Shown one piece after another: positions 15,553 through 22,298 of a stretch of 55,117 nucleotides of DNA (its first letter is position 1; each line of letters opens with the position of its first letter). The DNA is from Gammaproteobacteria bacterium (GTDB lineage: Bacteria; Pseudomonadota; Gammaproteobacteria; Pseudomonadales; Azotimanducaceae). The stretch is from the NCBI GenBank assembly GCA_027297435.1, contig JAPUIA010000237.1, positions 1-55,117 on the forward strand, given 5' to 3'. A model generated the notes under the pieces. That model searched no databases. It was not told where the DNA came from and was given only the letters and a program-made list of their open reading frames with translations. Both the position numbers and the translations under genes were made by a program.

Positions 15553-15580
15553 CAGGTTCGCGATGACCCGCACTGTTAGC

Positions 15581-15708
15581 GGTCTCAAAAATGCCGTCCT
15601 GGCATTTTTGCTCCACGTTTTCTTCGAAAACCACCCATTTTCGGTACGTAAAATGATCGCGCAGCCCTGCGCTCCTAGAAGCGGTCTCATTTTTGAGGCC
15701 GCTTCTAG
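15581..15708 (+). repeat. Multi-hairpin repeat, copy A
   Basis: About 128 bp, beginning GGTCTCAAAAATGCC and ending GCTTCTAG. Five consecutive stems can be drawn: AAAAATGCC/GGCATTTTT, GTTTTC/GAAAAC, CATTTT/AAAATG, GCGCAG/CTGCGC and CTAGAAGCGG/CCGCTTCTAG. It lies between the convergent PNPOx-like and tpm genes, and its last CTAG supplies the tpm stop codon. Confidence 0.85.
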
Positions 15709-16367
15709 TGCTCTTTCGTGATGTGGTAGATGCCTTCCATCGCCGAGGTGACTCCGGCCTCGGTGAAGTGCGGTGGCACCACGTCGGTTGTGCCGACCTC
15801 TAGCAACTCGACCTTACAGCGACTCCCATACAGCGTCTGCACCTCGGATTGCTCGACGCTAAAGGGCGGCCCCGGAACTTGTCCCTGGTCGTATTCAAAG
15901 GTGAGCAACAACATGTGTCCGCCATCGGGCATGACCCGTTGAACGTGGTCCGCATAGATAGCGCGCTGCTCGAGTGGCAGGGCGACCAGGCCGCCCCGGT
16001 CGTAGGTACCGTGCGCCACGTTCAGTTGCCGGGCGCTGATTTCCAGATAATCGCCGCAATAGATGTTGAACACGTCGCCACGGTAGCGCGGCAAATCCGG
16101 CGGGTTTTCGACGATCTCGAATTCGATTTGCGCTTCGGCAAAAAATTCTTCGACCGCCAGTTCCGATAGCTCTACCCCAAACACCCGATGGCCCGCAGAC
16201 TTGAGCCACATCATGTCGAGAGACTTTCCGCAAAGCGGAACGAACACAGAAGAGCCTGCCGGCAACGCAAATCCAGGCCAGTATTTGATGAGCCACGGGT
16301 TGAACTGGTCTTGGTGCCACCCGATCTGGCGGTTCAACCATCGCTCGAGCCAAAACTTAGCCTCCAA
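15705..16367 (-). CDS. tpm: Thiopurine S-methyltransferase
   Basis: 220 residues, SAM-dependent methyltransferase of the TPMT family. It begins MEAKFWLERWLNRQIGWHQ and has VPLCGKSLDMMWLKSAGHRVFGVELSELAVEEFF as SAM-binding motif I region, then IYCGDYLEI and YDRGGLVALP. Bacterial Tpm methylates sulfur, selenite or tellurite compounds. The start is a TTG at 16367 placed directly after the ggt stop (TAG-TTG), with GGGGA upstream inside ggt, so translation is coupled. Its TAG stop is part of the CTAG end of repeat copy A. Confidence 0.93.
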   Translation of the reverse strand: MEAKFWLERWLNRQIGWHQDQFNPWLIKYWPGFALPAGSSVFVPLCGKSLDMMWLKSAGHRVFGVELSELAVEEFFAEAQIEFEIVENPPDLPRYRGDVFNIYCGDYLEISARQLNVAHGTYDRGGLVALPLEQRAIYADHVQRVMPDGGHMLLLTFEYDQGQVPGPPFSVEQSEVQTLYGSRCKVELLEVGTTDVVPPHFTEAGVTSAMEGIYHITKEH

Positions 16368-18083
16368 CTAGCGGGTCCCCATCGAGTTGACGCCTATCGC
16401 ACCGCCCTCGTTGCGAGGATCGGCCATACCACGAAAACCCTCTTTGGTCCGCATTACCGAGTTGGCATCGCCTAAGCCGAAACGCGCTCTGACCTGGTTG
16501 ACGTGCCCTCGAGTTTGCAGCACTGCGAGCGTATCGGGAGAAAAACCCAGAGCCTCGAATATGACCCGGTCGGGTTGCCACTGGTGATGAAAACGCGGCC
16601 GCCCCACCGCGTCCGATACCGACATGCCGTGATCGATCACGTTCATGATCACCTGCATCGTTGTGGTGATGATCGTACTGCCGCCGGGAGAGCCCGTCGC
16701 CAACAAGATCTCGCCATCCTTCACCACGAGTGTTGGGGTCATCGAACTTAGCATGCGTTTGCCCGGCTGTATGGCGTTGGCTTCACGCCCGATCAAGCCA
16801 TAGGCGTTGGGGGTATTGTCCTTGGATGAGAAATCGTCCATCTCGTTGTTCAGTAAAAACCCGGTACCCTGTGCGACGATTTTGGAACCGTAGGACAGAT
16901 TCAACGTCGTCGTGTAGGCCACCGCATTGCCGTCTTGGTCGATGACCGACACGTGCGTCGTATCCGGACTTTCCGCCGGTGGTATTGCGCCTGCGCCGAT
17001 GTCCGAGGACTGGCTCGCCCGCTCGGGATCGAAATCGAGGAATCTCTGCCGCGCGTAGCTCTTGTCGATCAACATCGCGACCGGCACGGGGTAGAAGTCG
17101 GGATCGCCCATATGCTCCGCACGGTCGGCATAGGCCCGCCGTTCGGCTTCGATGACATGATGAATCGCATCGGCACTGCCGAAGCCCATGGCGCCTAAAT
17201 CGTACGCTTCCAGCATGTTCAGCATTTGCACGAGCAGCACCCCGCCGGAAGACGGCGGCGGCATGGAAACGATCTCGTGGCCGCGGTAACTGCCGACAAT
17301 GGGTTCGCGCCACACACTGTGGTACTCGGCAAGATCTGCAGCGCTGATCAGTCCGCCGCCCCTTTGCATCTCGGCGACGATGAGATTGGCAGTCTTGCCC
17401 TCGTAAAAACCCGCCCGGCCATCGCGCCGAATCCGCTCGAGCGTGGCACCAAGATCCCCTTGCCGAAAAACATCGCCCGGCTCGTAAGGCGTACCATCCT
17501 TATTGGCAAACTGCTTCGCGCTCGCCGGGTATTTGGCAAACTTCGCATGCACCGATGCCAACGACTCGGCGAGATCTCGCGACAACACGAAGCCGCGCCG
17601 CGCGATATTGATAGCCGGCTGCACCACCTCTCTACGGCTCATCGTGCCGTATTTTTCAAGTGCCGAAAGCAGCCCGTCCACGGTGCCCGGGACGCCGACC
17701 GCCAGATGCGACGCGGTAGACAATCCGCGCACGACCTCACCATCCGCGTCCTGGTACATCTCGCGAGTGGCCCCCGTCGGAGCTTTTTCACGGTGATCGT
17801 TGGCGGCAATCGTGCCGTCGGCCATGCGAATGACCATAAATCCGCCACCACCGAGGTTGCCAGCTGACGGATGGGTCACGGCGAGGGCAAAACCCACGGC
17901 AACCGCCGCATCGACCGCGTTGCCGCCACGCCGCAAGGTTGCCGAACCAACGATGGAAGCCAGCTGCGAGCGCGAGGCCACGGCGCCAAACTCTCCGTAC
18001 GCAGCATCGCGGCTGGCAGAGTGTCCCGTCTGGGCACACGACAAGACAACACAAACTGCCCAAACTCGGTACTTCATGTACAT
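16368..18083 (-). CDS. ggt: Gamma-glutamyltranspeptidase
   Basis: About 571 residues. A signal peptide (YRVWAVCVVLSCAQTGHSA) sends it to the periplasm. The proenzyme cleaves itself before the catalytic Thr in SPDTTHVSVID (about residue 375), giving large and small subunits. Other signatures are GNLGGGGFMVIR, PPPSSGGVLLVQML and LNLSYGSKIVAQGTGFLLNNEMDDFS. It hydrolyses glutathione and gamma-glutamyl peptides. I chose ATG 18083 (GAAG eight bases upstream); ATG 18077 or TTG 18089 are alternatives. Coupled to tpm downstream, and divergent from ycaQ. Confidence 0.95.
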   Translation of the reverse strand: MYMKYRVWAVCVVLSCAQTGHSASRDAAYGEFGAVASRSQLASIVGSATLRRGGNAVDAAVAVGFALAVTHPSAGNLGGGGFMVIRMADGTIAANDHREKAPTGATREMYQDADGEVVRGLSTASHLAVGVPGTVDGLLSALEKYGTMSRREVVQPAINIARRGFVLSRDLAESLASVHAKFAKYPASAKQFANKDGTPYEPGDVFRQGDLGATLERIRRDGRAGFYEGKTANLIVAEMQRGGGLISAADLAEYHSVWREPIVGSYRGHEIVSMPPPSSGGVLLVQMLNMLEAYDLGAMGFGSADAIHHVIEAERRAYADRAEHMGDPDFYPVPVAMLIDKSYARQRFLDFDPERASQSSDIGAGAIPPAESPDTTHVSVIDQDGNAVAYTTTLNLSYGSKIVAQGTGFLLNNEMDDFSSKDNTPNAYGLIGREANAIQPGKRMLSSMTPTLVVKDGEILLATGSPGGSTIITTTMQVIMNVIDHGMSVSDAVGRPRFHHQWQPDRVIFEALGFSPDTLAVLQTRGHVNQVRARFGLGDANSVMRTKEGFRGMADPRNEGGAIGVNSMGTR

Positions 18084-18123
18084 TGACAACTTCTACGACG
18101 CTTCTAGCGTGGGCGATTCTGAC

Positions 18124-19347
18124 GTGATTGAGCCTAAAGGCAAGGCCACCTTACCCATCAGCAAACTGCGCCGGGTGGCGCTGGAACAGCAAGGTTTACT
18201 GCGCCGCGCGCATTTCGGCCGCGGTAAGAACGCCACGCTGCGCGCCATCGAACATCTCGGCTATGTCCAAATCGACACGATCTCGGTCGTACAACGCGCG
18301 CACCATCACGTGCTGAGGACCCGTGTGCCAAACTACGAAACCGCGTTTCTCGATCGGTTGCAGGCCGAAGCCAAGGTGTTCGAGTACTGGTATCACGCAG
18401 CCGCGTATCTGCCGATGCGCGACTATCGGTTTGCGCTGCCGAGAATGCGTGCCATGAAACGCCATTCGACAGAAGGTGGCGCCGGCTGGGTACGCAGCCG
18501 CGATAAGCAACTCATGGACAAGATCCTCGACCGAATTCGCATCGATGGACGCTTGCGGTCGCGCGACTTCGAAGATACGGGAGGCTCGAATGCCGGTTGG
18601 TGGGATTGGAAACCGGCAAAACGCGCACTCGAACAACTGTTCATTCAGGGTGACTTGATGATTACGGGTCGCGTAGGATTCCAGAAATCCTACGACCTGC
18701 CCGAACGCGTTCTGCCGTCCGACGTCAACGTCGACGAACCGACTACCGACGAGCTTGCCCACCACGTCGTCGGCAACACGTTGCGTGCCCACGGTTTCGC
18801 CACACTAAAATCGTTCACCCACGGACGCAAAGGCTCGGCGCTCAGACAAGCCGTGAAAAAATGTCTGGAAGACGGAGCAGTCGGCGGTCGCTTCGCCCGG
18901 TTTACAACCGCGAACGGGACTCTGTGGTACGGCGATAGAAGCTCGCTAGAACCACGAGCGCCTTCGACCAGTGCGAGCGTCAGAATACTTTCGCCGTTCG
19001 ACAACGCGGTCATTCTGCGCCACCGCGCGCAAGTGCTGTTCGAATTCGATTATCAGATCGAATGCTATGTCAAAGCCGAACATCGCCGGTTTGGCTACTT
19101 CTGCCTGCCCATTTTGTATCGGGATCGTTTCGTCGGCCGCATGGACTGCAAGGCACACCGCCAAGATCGACATTTGGAAATCAGGCGACTGTTCATCGAA
19201 GCGCCGGTTGATGACGGGTTTTTGCAAGCGTTCACGGACGCTACTTGGGACTTTGCCGGCTGCAACGACTGTGTCGAGGTGTCGCTGACGAGCTGCGAAC
19301 CTGGCAAGCTCACCACCCAGATTGCAACGTCGTTGAAGGCACAGTGA
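18124..19347 (+). CDS. ycaQ: YcaQ-type winged-helix DNA glycosylase (crosslink repair)
   Basis: 407 residues from the GTG at 18124, almost the same as E. coli YcaQ (410). Family signatures are strong: QIDTISVVQRAHHHVLRTR, FEYWYHAAAYLPMRDYR, GWWDWKPAKRALEQLF, LSPFDNAVI, FGYFCLPILYRDRFVGRMD. YcaQ/AlkX unhooks interstrand crosslinks and alkylated bases by glycosylase action. The frame is open far upstream (to 17800), antisense to ggt; I reject that region because alignment with YcaQ starts at this GTG. ATG 18076 is possible but would overlap the ggt start. Confidence 0.9.
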   Translation: MIEPKGKATLPISKLRRVALEQQGLLRRAHFGRGKNATLRAIEHLGYVQIDTISVVQRAHHHVLRTRVPNYETAFLDRLQAEAKVFEYWYHAAAYLPMRDYRFALPRMRAMKRHSTEGGAGWVRSRDKQLMDKILDRIRIDGRLRSRDFEDTGGSNAGWWDWKPAKRALEQLFIQGDLMITGRVGFQKSYDLPERVLPSDVNVDEPTTDELAHHVVGNTLRAHGFATLKSFTHGRKGSALRQAVKKCLEDGAVGGRFARFTTANGTLWYGDRSSLEPRAPSTSASVRILSPFDNAVILRHRAQVLFEFDYQIECYVKAEHRRFGYFCLPILYRDRFVGRMDCKAHRQDRHLEIRRLFIEAPVDDGFLQAFTDATWDFAGCNDCVEVSLTSCEPGKLTTQIATSLKAQ

Positions 19348-19348
19348 C

Positions 19349-20218
19349 ATGACCGATTATCACCACCCCGAATATCTGATCGGCCCCGCCGATCTCGAAC
19401 CCAGCCTCGCCGATGAGAATACGCGGGTATTCGACGCGACGGTTTTCCTGGTACCCGCGGATACCGGGTATCGCGCCGAAAGTGGTCGAGCCAAGTACGC
19501 CCAAGGCCACGTGCCGGGCAGTGCGTTCATGGATCTGATCGAAACCTTCGCCGATACCAGCACGGGGCTCGGATTCAGCCTACCGAGTGCACAAAAACTG
19601 CAGGACGGCTTTCGCTCGATCGGTATCAACGACGATAGTCGAATCATCTTCTACTCGACCGGGCATATGATGTGGGCGACTCGGGCCTGGTGGTTGGCTT
19701 ACTACGCGGGCTTGAGCAACATTGCCGTGCTAAATGGCGGGTTCAAGCGCTGGAAGCGTGAGTCGCGCAGCATCGAGACGGGTGCGTCGAACTATCCAGA
19801 GGGCACCGTTACGGTGCGCGCCCATGCAGATTATTTCGTCGACAAGAGCGACGTCCAAAGCGCCATCGAAGACCCGCACACAAGCACGGTCAACGCGTTG
19901 TCACCCGAGGTGTATGCCGGCACCGGAGACATGCACTACGGGCGCCGCGGGCACATACCCGGCAGTTTGAATCTGTTCTACGATGAACTGATGCAGGAGG
20001 GGGGCTTCTGTTCGGCCGACAACTTGCGCACAACCCTCAACCGACAGGGTTTATTGGACGCCGACCGGGTCATCGCGTATTGCGGCGGCGGTATTTCCGC
20101 GACTATCGATGCGTTTGCATGCCTGCTGGTCGGCAAGGAAGACGTCGCGGTGTACGACGGATCGATGTCGGAGTGGGTGCGTGAGGGCTTACCGTTGACA
20201 GAGGGCAACAACCCTTAG
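19349..20218 (+). CDS. Two-domain sulfurtransferase (rhodanese/SseA-like)
   Basis: 289 residues with two rhodanese domains. The inactive N-terminal half includes ARPGRAKYAQGHVPGSAFMDL-like sequence (about 45-60). The active C-terminal half has GHIPGSLNLFYDEL and the loop VIAYCGGGISA, whose Cys (about residue 245) forms the persulfide. These enzymes move sulfur from thiosulfate or 3-mercaptopyruvate to cyanide or thiols; CGGGIS does not settle which donor. The ATG lies one base after the ycaQ stop, so they form an operon. Confidence 0.88.
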   Translation: MTDYHHPEYLIGPADLEPSLADENTRVFDATVFLVPADTGYRAESGRAKYAQGHVPGSAFMDLIETFADTSTGLGFSLPSAQKLQDGFRSIGINDDSRIIFYSTGHMMWATRAWWLAYYAGLSNIAVLNGGFKRWKRESRSIETGASNYPEGTVTVRAHADYFVDKSDVQSAIEDPHTSTVNALSPEVYAGTGDMHYGRRGHIPGSLNLFYDELMQEGGFCSADNLRTTLNRQGLLDADRVIAYCGGGISATIDAFACLLVGKEDVAVYDGSMSEWVREGLPLTEGNNP

Positions 20219-20240
20219 CGGCCGGGCCGTAGGTTAGCGG
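20217..20240. terminator. GC-rich hairpin between convergent genes, motif 1
   Basis: AGCGGCCGGGCCG (20217-20229), then TAGGTTAGCGG. The sulfurtransferase TAG and the cyclase stop (TAA on minus) both fall in it. A near-identical block occurs at 39743-39768. It is probably a short REP-like transcript end; no T-run follows. Confidence 0.45.
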
Positions 20241-21181
20241 ATTGCGATGGGGTTGATGATCATCTGCACCGCGCCGCGCACTTTTGCCTGCCCCAACACA
20301 AACAGGAACTCGAACGCTTCATCCCGCACCAAGGGGCCGGTGTTCATGGTTTCGAGCACGTAGATGCCGTTCTCTTTCAACAGCGTGACATGGCCCCGAA
20401 AGGGACGGTCCGGGTGTTCCGAAGGCACGACATCCAAACCCCAGGTATCCGAACCGACCGCCACTACGTTCTTGCTTGCGAGGTACTCGGCCACTGCCTC
20501 GGCCTGTCCCGGCGCACTCGCTGCCCAAGCATCGGGGTCACTGATCAACTTGGCATCGGTCCAGCCCGTGTGTATCAATACGACGTCGCCCTCTCGAACC
20601 GGTGTACCTTGTTTGGCCTCCACCGCCTTGATGTCCTCGACAGTGTAGGCCTGGCCGGCGGCAAGGTATTCGACGCCGTAGTGGCCGGCCATATCCAGCA
20701 CGATGCCTCTCGCCACGAGCGGCGGAACGTTTTCGATACCGAGCTTGGTGAGCCCATCGATCGCTGCGAAATCGCTCGCATGGTTGCAGTTGTAGTAAAC
20801 GCCATCGATACCGAGGTGTCCGAGCCCGTCGATCTGCGGACCGATGCCAAACCAACCGTTGAAGATGTCATCGTTGTAGGTCATCGCCCCGAACGGACGC
20901 GCACCTTCTTGTTGTCCCGGCTGTACGATCGTCAACGACAAACCACGAGGCGGAAACGCCGGCGTGTTCGCGTCGATCGTGATACCCAAGCTATAGGTCT
21001 TGCCGGTTTTAATGAGCGACGCGGCCTGTAGCACCGATTGCGGTGTCAACAGGTTGGCGTTGCCGATCTCGTCGTCACCTCCCCAACGCGACGGCTGACA
21101 CGAATCTGCCGCACCGGCCGGCATGGCCAAGCTAAGGGTCAGCGCGCCGAGGCCAACCGCCACCGATTTCATCGCTTGCAT
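20234..21181 (-). CDS. Secreted cyclase-family (kynurenine formamidase-like) hydrolase
   Basis: 315 residues from ATG 21181, which has a strong AGGAGGGA upstream; the longer frame to 21214 is less likely. A signal peptide (VGLGALTLSLAMPAGAA) predicts a periplasmic or secreted protein. The cyclase domain (PF04199 type) shows the metal-binding region DGLGHLGIDGVYYNC, in place of the usual HxGTHxD, and a later VLIHTGW...SDTWGLD segment. Members hydrolyse amides or cyclic compounds using a metal. The altered metal motif means the activity is uncertain. It is convergent with the sulfurtransferase. Confidence 0.85.
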   Translation of the reverse strand: MQAMKSVAVGLGALTLSLAMPAGAADSCQPSRWGGDDEIGNANLLTPQSVLQAASLIKTGKTYSLGITIDANTPAFPPRGLSLTIVQPGQQEGARPFGAMTYNDDIFNGWFGIGPQIDGLGHLGIDGVYYNCNHASDFAAIDGLTKLGIENVPPLVARGIVLDMAGHYGVEYLAAGQAYTVEDIKAVEAKQGTPVREGDVVLIHTGWTDAKLISDPDAWAASAPGQAEAVAEYLASKNVVAVGSDTWGLDVVPSEHPDRPFRGHVTLLKENGIYVLETMNTGPLVRDEAFEFLFVLGQAKVRGAVQMIINPIAIR

Positions 21182-21320
21182 CTTTCTCTCCCTCCTCAAG
21201 GAACCAGACTGCAATGTTTAACCCATATTGAGATTGAATTCACGCCCAGTTCGACCTCCTCATGCATCGCCACGACGGATTCAGCCGCCCAATACACGGA
21301 GCGGGCTCAAGTCTACGACC

Positions 21321-21449
21321 GATCTCAAAAATGCCGTCCTGGCATCTTTTCGAGACGGTTTGCTGCGCAAACCTCGCATTTTCCTTACGTATCATGATCG
21401 CGCATCCATGCGCTTCCTAGAAGCGGTCTCTTTATGAGAGCGCTTCTAG
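21321..21449 (+). repeat. Multi-hairpin repeat, copy B
   Basis: 129 bp aligned end to end with copies A and C: GATCTCAAAAATGCCGTCC at the left and CGCTTCTAG at the right. Stem 2 is GGTTTGC/GCAAACC and stem 4 GCGCAT/ATGCGC. The terminal CTAG gives the stop codon of the histidine phosphatase gene (21446). Confidence 0.88.
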
Positions 21450-22162
21450 AGGTTTGGACTAACGCGGCGTTCCTCGCCGTGTTGGCTCTTCAACCAATAG
21501 ACATCGTCGTCCCGATAGGCAATCAAGGCGTCCAGGAACTCGACCCTGGGACCGTCCACCGGCTCACCGAGCAGCCGGTCGCGTACCAGGTGCACGGTCA
21601 TGTCGTGGGAAACACAGATATCCAACTGTGGCGTGCCGATCGGCGAACTGAGTTTCTCGGTCATTACGCGCAACACCAGCGTCGCGGCCAATTGCGACGG
21701 CATCATCGCATCTAGAGGCACGTCACCGGCAAACCACTGCTGCAGATAGTTGACCATCCCGCCAGCTTCAGTCATGCCCTTCCACATCTTCATCTGGTCG
21801 AGCACGTAGAACACACCCAAGGCCTCTAGGGGCCGATGCCGGGTCACGTCGCCGCCCGCTTCTCGATGACTCGTCAAGATCAGCTCTGCGGTTTCCAAGC
21901 AGCGCGCGGCGGGACTAGCATAGGCTCGAAGCGTGAGATCCTTAGGCAGCGCTTTGCCGAAGCGCAGACAACGTTCGCGGCCTTCTTCGGTCAACGGGTT
22001 CGCGAGGTCGTGCACCGCAGGATCGAACTCGCGAGCCGAATGACGCATCAGAACCACCGCGTGGTGCACACCGTTGGCAAACACGCTTTCGATCAAGCCA
22101 ACCGTGGCGTCCCCGTAATCGTTCACATGCGTTCCCGTCGTGAATCGCAGTTTTTCTTGCAT
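21446..22162 (-). CDS. Histidine phosphatase-family protein (phosphoglycerate mutase-like)
   Basis: 238 residues from the ATG at 22162, which has GGTGG upstream; the frame runs on upstream only because it crosses repeat copy C. The motif AVVLMRHSAREFD is the family RHG-type start (RHS here), with a second histidine region in DICVSHDMTVHLVRD near the C-terminus and TEEGRERCLRFG between. Such enzymes dephosphorylate sugars, nucleotides or proteins through a phosphohistidine. The gene lies exactly between repeat copies B and C. Confidence 0.85.
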   Translation of the reverse strand: MQEKLRFTTGTHVNDYGDATVGLIESVFANGVHHAVVLMRHSAREFDPAVHDLANPLTEEGRERCLRFGKALPKDLTLRAYASPAARCLETAELILTSHREAGGDVTRHRPLEALGVFYVLDQMKMWKGMTEAGGMVNYLQQWFAGDVPLDAMMPSQLAATLVLRVMTEKLSSPIGTPQLDICVSHDMTVHLVRDRLLGEPVDGPRVEFLDALIAYRDDDVYWLKSQHGEERRVSPNL

Positions 22163-22169
22163 TACCACC

Positions 22170-22298
22170 GATCTCAAAAATGCCGTCCCGGCATTTTTTT
22201 CGAGACGGTTTGCTATGCAAACCTCGCATTTTCCTTTGGAAAATGGTCGCGCATCCATGCGCTCCCTAGAAGTAGTCTCTTTTTGAGACCCCTTCTAG
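22170..22298 (+). repeat. Multi-hairpin repeat, copy C
   Basis: 129 bp, same orientation as A and B. Stem 1 (AAAAATGCCG-TCC-CGGCATTTTT) is perfect and followed by T residues; stem 3 is CATTTTCC/GGAAAATG. It lies seven bases upstream of the phosphatase ATG. The end is followed by two tandem TAGTATCTTT units (22296-22315). Confidence 0.88.

Follow-up and report, generated by a model that had tools for sequence, protein, structure and literature searches.

What are the three similar repeats, copies A, B and C, that lie in one orientation on a 55,117-nucleotide stretch of a gammaproteobacterial genome of the Azotimanducaceae (contig JAPUIA010000237.1; this whole stretch is referred to here as the window)? 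A sequence-only reading had described a structured repeat of no named family with paired stem changes, and had suggested an RNA or hairpin function. Our analysis indicates that the repeats are probably non-autonomous transposons of the miniature inverted-repeat transposable element (MITE) type, with a hairpin body maintained by selection. The elements are about 130 to 150 bp long, dispersed, and without coding capacity for a transposase. They carry terminal repeats and ends of the kind found on insertion sequences, and two of the subtypes also have target duplications; their stems keep pairing, and two of their loops have a motif in common. This transposon-like nature (terminal inverted repeats, target-site duplications and insertion-sequence-type ends) is absent from the earlier reading. 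We infer that the window's own subtype was mobilized by a transposase of insertion sequences with similar ends, and likewise what the body does.

The body follows a single plan. In 59 copies segmented by folding, five hairpins occur in the fixed order H1-linker-H2-TC-C/G-H3-TC-H4-H5, where H1 has an NTCCY-type and H4 an NTCCYT-type loop, H2 usually has 7 and H3 usually 8 pairs, each with a 3-nt loop, and H5 is the palindrome of the element end (ten copies, mostly with extended or extra hairpins, were left unparsed by the fixed parser). Between lineages, stem sequences differ wholesale and pairing is kept. In an alignment of 28 copies, 91.4% of cells were paired, double changes occurred at 19 of 30 pairs, and the covariation score was 0.353 versus 0.115 after shuffling. 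In 93 distinct copies (95 aligned matches, less two L155 rows that duplicate L010), 92.4% of 2685 cells were paired, double changes occurred at 26 of 30 pairs, and covariation reached 0.432 versus 0.127 in shuffled and 0.034 to 0.092 in slid controls. Kinship alone can lift covariation above shuffles; the slid controls preserve kinship yet score far lower. A structured family with pairing-preserving changes is thus borne out, with the qualification that three copies are too few to show covariation by themselves; the wider family shows it well above both kinds of control. The H1 and H4 loops vary less than many stem positions (constancy of T, C and C: 1.00, 0.99 and 0.92 in H1; 0.87, 0.88 and 0.92 in H4). 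Chance or artifact was ruled out by fold shuffles, covariation controls and pattern controls; a reversed control pattern gave far fewer matches in element-rich genomes.

In the window, the three copies and their hairpins lie as follows:

15573..15708, + strand: copy A, whole element (covariance model, 141.8 bits)
15586..15610, + strand: copy A H1; AGGA in the reverse-strand loop (CsrA-like)
15617..15631, + strand: copy A H2; GTTTTC/GAAAAC
15636..15655, + strand: copy A H3
15659..15672, + strand: copy A H4; reverse-strand loop without GGA
15675..15708, + strand: copy A H5; terminal-repeat palindrome whose CTAG gives the TAG stop of a − strand TPMT-like gene
21313..21449, + strand: copy B, whole element (covariance model, 154.4 bits)
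21327..21349, + strand: copy B H1; AGGA in the reverse-strand loop
21357..21373, + strand: copy B H2; GGTTTGC/GCAAACC
21377..21396, + strand: copy B H3; degenerate
21400..21413, + strand: copy B H4; ATGGA in the reverse-strand loop
21417..21449, + strand: copy B H5; CTAG gives the TAG stop of a − strand histidine-phosphatase-like gene
22162..22298, + strand: copy C, whole element (covariance model, 150.4 bits)
22176..22198, + strand: copy C H1; reverse-strand loop without A(N)GGA
22207..22223, + strand: copy C H2; GGTTTGC/GCAAACC
22227..22245, + strand: copy C H3
22249..22262, + strand: copy C H4; ATGGA in the reverse-strand loop
22266..22298, + strand: copy C H5; terminal-repeat palindrome

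The sequence-only reading had correctly aligned the three copies end to end in the same orientation; its left boundary fell short, the elements being about 8 nt longer by the covariance model. The five consecutive stems that it drew form in A and C, and in B H3 is unformed in the predicted structure. Its paired change in stem 2 is real (GTTTTC/GAAAAC in A versus GTTTGC/GCAAAC in B and C). The compensatory change claimed for stem 4 (GCGCAG/CTGCGC versus GCGCAT/ATGCGC) had to be given up: A, B and C all have the stem GCGCA/TGCGC, and the difference is a loop change because a sixth pair would leave a 2-nt loop. A helix closing the element from left to right end had also been proposed; the complementarity exists, but predicted folds place the right end inside H5, and a mobile element's terminal inverted repeat is the better interpretation of it. 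RNA folding gave z-scores of −8.4, −5.3 and −8.8 for A, B and C (0 of 200 dinucleotide shuffles as stable, for each copy), and single-stranded DNA folds of both strands were likewise far better than those of dinucleotide shuffles.

Neither ground on which the earlier reading would have fallen applies: covariation is well above the controls, and both blastn and covariance models found more copies in the window's own genome and in its relatives. With copy A as query, blastn of the own genome gave 41 matches (full-length copies, fragments and palindrome self-matches), and R1, a covariance model built from 24 copies, placed elements at 30 positions with E ≤ 6e-11. R1 matched 18 of the 206 genomes of the same Genome Taxonomy Database (GTDB) family and 7 of its 37 genera, the own genome included, and blastn matched 5 of 97 relatives, again counting it; the eight other same-genus genomes gave no match with either. 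An exact H3 pattern hit seven stretches among named records, all from gammaproteobacterial or Pseudomonadales metagenome assemblies. The absence of a named family also held: Rfam had no match above the gathering score in the window, and across 20 loci it reported only a tRNA and an S15 leader, both outside the elements; no description of the repeat was located in the papers searched, a body of literature that mostly excludes subscription papers. The S15 leader match adjoins a remote element (L144:1333-1457, − strand; 40.2 bits against a cut-off of 39.5). Phages, plasmids, E. coli and viral contigs were without a match to the sequences queried, not every subtype having been run against every collection; a loose H4 pattern matched six viral contigs, where the folds are a single hairpin without the array.

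The ends of the elements link them to insertion sequences. Both TNNCTGTCC-type (GTCC-type) ends were recognized in 43 of the 95 aligned copies, the other 52 being left out of the duplication count. An exact 6-bp target duplication flanks 15 of these 43 (mean of 2.5 after shuffling, with none of 1000 shuffles reaching 15) and an exact 8-bp duplication flanks 7 (shuffled mean 0.9); an 8-bp duplication had been noticed by eye at first, and the counts favor 6 bp. The terminal repeat of the window subtype (GGTCTC-type ends) reads CTAnAAgcGGTCTC on the left and, as the reverse complement of the right hairpin, CTAGAAGCGGTCTC. A search with the GTCC-type end pattern located one locus where the end CTAGTTCCTGTCCGGAAATTC is followed by a transposase open reading frame (ORF) cut by the contig end. 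The fragment matches the ISNCY transposase model NF033593 of NCBIfam (E = 1.9e-36; below the curated cut-off because the ORF is a fragment) and Pfam PF05598, and relatives of this ISNCY-type transposase occur in 10 of the 206 family genomes. At 5 of 12 matched transposase places, GTCC-type ends stand on both sides, 1.63 to 1.75 kb apart; among these five two-ended elements, duplications of 7 bp and of 6 bp occur once each. The ISNCY insertion sequences resemble the hairpin elements in their terminal repeat YTAGTTCYTGTCC and similar target, and one copy begins with 21 bp identical to the left end of family elements; they differ in being about 1.6 to 1.75 kb long, in having a transposase and in lacking the hairpin array, for which the covariance model R2 gave at best 10.2 bits (E = 0.2) over 13 insertion-sequence loci.

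The plan extends well beyond the family. Within the order, R2, the covariance model for remote searches, matched 9 of 390 genomes, and in a class-wide sample it matched 13 of 369 (own genome included in both); the remote copies have an identical hairpin order and different ends. One of their end types, GGAANSTCTGAANAA, was matched 246 times in a single 3.2-Mb genome and 102, 31, 16 and 7 times in four others, numbers that are not copy numbers since there is usually more than one match per element; the reversed control of this pattern had no match in any of the five genomes. Remote elements are flanked on both sides by YTAR, and the flanks are identical, that is, a 4-bp duplication, in 14 of 15. 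They end YTAR-GGAAGCTCTGAATAAG, which we take to be IS5-like from the IS5 end sequence and YTAR target; such a hairpin body is not known from IS5. R3, a model built solely from 14 remote copies hand-picked from the class-level matches, recovered most of the family elements supplied, at their known places (window copies at 34.1, 36.7 and 39.9 bits), and found nothing in eight element-free same-genus regions of the same search. R2 conversely found 21 of 24 supplied remote loci at E ≤ 1 and nothing in those controls. The hairpin bodies of the family and of the remote elements likely share descent, although convergent constraint behind the shared body is possible.

In the transposon interpretation, each end would be a terminal inverted repeat beside its own reverse complement, giving hairpins H1 and H5, with the conserved body H2-H3-H4 between them. 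Transposases of insertion sequences with similar ends would move the element in trans, of the ISNCY type in this family and presumably IS5-like (by the end sequence) in the remote genomes. Insertion would duplicate 4 or 6 to 8 bp of a CTAG/YTAR-rich target, often at a stop codon, which would stay preserved. The end of copy A coincides exactly with the stop codon of the TPMT-like gene, whose protein ends ..TKEH* with the TAG provided by the element; in one same-genus genome (G004), the same ..TKEH* gene end has a TGA stop and no element. By gene calls from a simple codon-usage script rather than curated annotation, most own copies are intergenic, the element overlaps a stop codon in 10 of 28, and the same 28 stand in 14 tandem, 6 convergent, 6 divergent and 2 undetermined contexts. 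Copies B and C flank a single histidine-phosphatase-like gene in the same orientation (21313-22298); copy C ends at the likely ATG of this gene (22160-22162, − strand), so that its reverse strand would be the gene's leader.

What, then, might the body do? The loops of H1 and H4 read CA(N)GGA(U/C/A) on the reverse strand. The core A(N)GGA is present on that strand in H1 of 69 and H4 of 72 of the 93 copies (7 of 93 for H2 and 4 of 93 for H3), and on the plus strand in 1 of 93 for H1 and 0 of 93 for H4. All 14 of the hand-picked remote copies have it in both H1 and H4, and six have an extra instance between. A published review gives the motif of CsrA as CAGGA(U/A/C)G in CsrB loops and as RUACARGGAUGU after systematic evolution of ligands by exponential enrichment (SELEX) (PMC7652899); the remote H4 CACAGGGAUGUG contains ACAGGGAUGU. 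The H1 and H4 loops look like putative docking sites for CsrA/RsmA. GGA in the loops of several hairpins, of the CAGGA(U/A/C)G type and more than one per RNA, is also a feature of CsrB/RsmY-type RNAs (PMC7652899, PMC4383904), and the reverse strand has it at the H1 and H4 frequencies just given. CsrB/RsmY-type RNAs are, by the same sources, free small RNAs that sequester CsrA, with about 18 motifs in CsrB, whereas here two motifs lie in a mobile repeat. The likeliest single reading of the body, though on its own somewhat less likely than not, is that H4 and H1 of a reverse-strand RNA act as a pair of CsrA/RsmA-type hairpins, each with CA(N)GGA in its loop. The element would then bring CsrA sites into transcripts. 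The broader version is rather unlikely: a mobile CsrA/RsmA-binding module in which transposase-spread arrays, borne across Gammaproteobacteria by transposon ends of three or more kinds, would place paired CsrA hairpins in transcripts from tens of loci in each genome, perhaps as many as a hundred, rewiring or titrating the Csr network. If the loops bind CsrA, transposition would spread sites of a global regulator.

A number of results weigh against the transposon interpretation or its RNA component. None of 25 copies of the window's own subtype has a target duplication, and the mobility of this subtype therefore rests on relatedness to other subtypes; no ISNCY-type partner with the window's GGTCTC-type ends was found, and the own genome had no match to a transposase of the ISNCY kind. 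Both loop motifs occur together only in window copy B, A being without GGA in H4 and C without it in H1. The H1 stems, at 8 to 16 bp, are longer than those of most SELEX hairpins, which have four or fewer contiguous pairs according to that review (PMC7652899). Orientation has no clear preference: as a candidate sign of RNA it stood at 9 to 4 among own tandem copies and then, over 92 copies in three sets, at 28 reverse-sense versus 18 plus-sense tandem contexts (10 incomplete), and it was set aside as not clear. Wobble pairs were also rejected as a signature of plus-strand RNA, with 53 G-T versus 55 A-C cells in the 93 copies; leaving out the pair that closes the H4 loop gives 34 versus 52 (P = 0.07), a slight lean to the reverse strand. 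The acceptor and T stems of 29 tRNAs from the own genome gave 22 G-T versus 0 A-C, and by these counts wobble is less clearly favored than in tRNA on either strand, a signal that decay of dead copies could blur. For the RNA or hairpin function first suggested, this leaves no plus-strand wobble signal and no clear orientation preference; the sole pointer to RNA is the loop motif of the reverse strand.

The same results bear on what else could maintain the hairpins. They may act only as DNA, extruded on single strands at replication, where they would make the stiff 130-bp interior shorter and draw the ends together for the transposase while the TCC loops contact a DNA-binding protein. This is a possible but doubtful explanation, consistent with near-equal G-T and A-C cells that favor neither strand as RNA, with the absence of a clear orientation preference and with the strong predicted single-strand DNA folds of both strands; however, end-sharing ISNCY insertion sequences manage without the array, so that a transposase of that kind does not need it, and the loop motif matches that of a known RNA-binding protein. 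The arms could instead be matched by mutation, one arm being copied onto the other in a replication hairpin so that paired changes arise in one step. Double changes (482 cells) do far exceed one-sided ones and wobble intermediates are few, but many stem positions are less conserved than the loops, and elements of remote genomes repeat the order of hairpins and loops between different ends, making this unlikely. An excess of transversion-type double changes was dropped as a sign of copied arms, the ratio of 321:149 being the same share as the 91:39 in tRNA and lending no support.

Another cis-acting or free RNA, such as a terminator, a processing site or a plus-strand small RNA, would fit the very stable folds and the mostly intergenic own copies; it is improbable given the lack of an Rfam match, a plus strand without G-T excess and the mixed gene contexts of the 28 own copies, which indicate no gene-end preference. 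Hardly credible at all is a spread as repetitive extragenic palindromes (REP) by a Y1 REP-associated tyrosine transposase (RAYT): high copy number, palindromes and two solo end-palindromes (31 and 43 bp) recall such a system, but the target duplications of 4 and 6 bp and the ends in common with a DDE-type ISNCY element do not.

Among known repeats, the elements probably belong in kind to the bacterial miniature transposons, from which the conserved five-hairpin body sets them apart as new. According to a published review, bacterial MITEs (Correia/NEMIS, ERIC, RUP, YPAL and RU-3) are likewise 100 to 200 bp long, intergenic and stably folded, with terminal repeats and a target duplication, but most form one long stem from both ends (PMC2229807), whereas here there are five consecutive hairpins with conserved loops and paired stem changes. 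CIR repeats of Caulobacter and Brucella are similar in length (about 110 bp), in separate stem-loop arms, in a conserved loop motif and in conservation across species; they differ in having two arms and a GANTC motif, with a terminal repeat unreported in the table of that source (PMC2229807). Short mobile repeats are usually viewed as what is left of transposons in decay, with a single fold-back stem; a single five-hairpin plan across genera and orders, with stems and ends changing, calls for a selected function of the body. The covariance model of the family could annotate many unlabelled intergenic repeats.

Some copies depart from the common plan. One has GTACGCAGTGC in tandem between H3 and H4 (L038:302-470), where the other copies in that genome have it singly; at three loci (L077, L079 and L096), a second copy directly follows the first, and at L191 the two ends have CTAATTAG in common. 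H5 occurs alone as a solo end-palindrome at L025, and the pattern pairs in G055:C290 and G161:C205 are the solo end-palindromes of 31 and 43 bp, as measured by pattern positions. L083, L094 and L200-L205 (genome G035) form a subfamily in which H3 and H4 are longer and H2 is GC-rich, and L088 and L220-L224 (genome G012) have a 12-bp H2.

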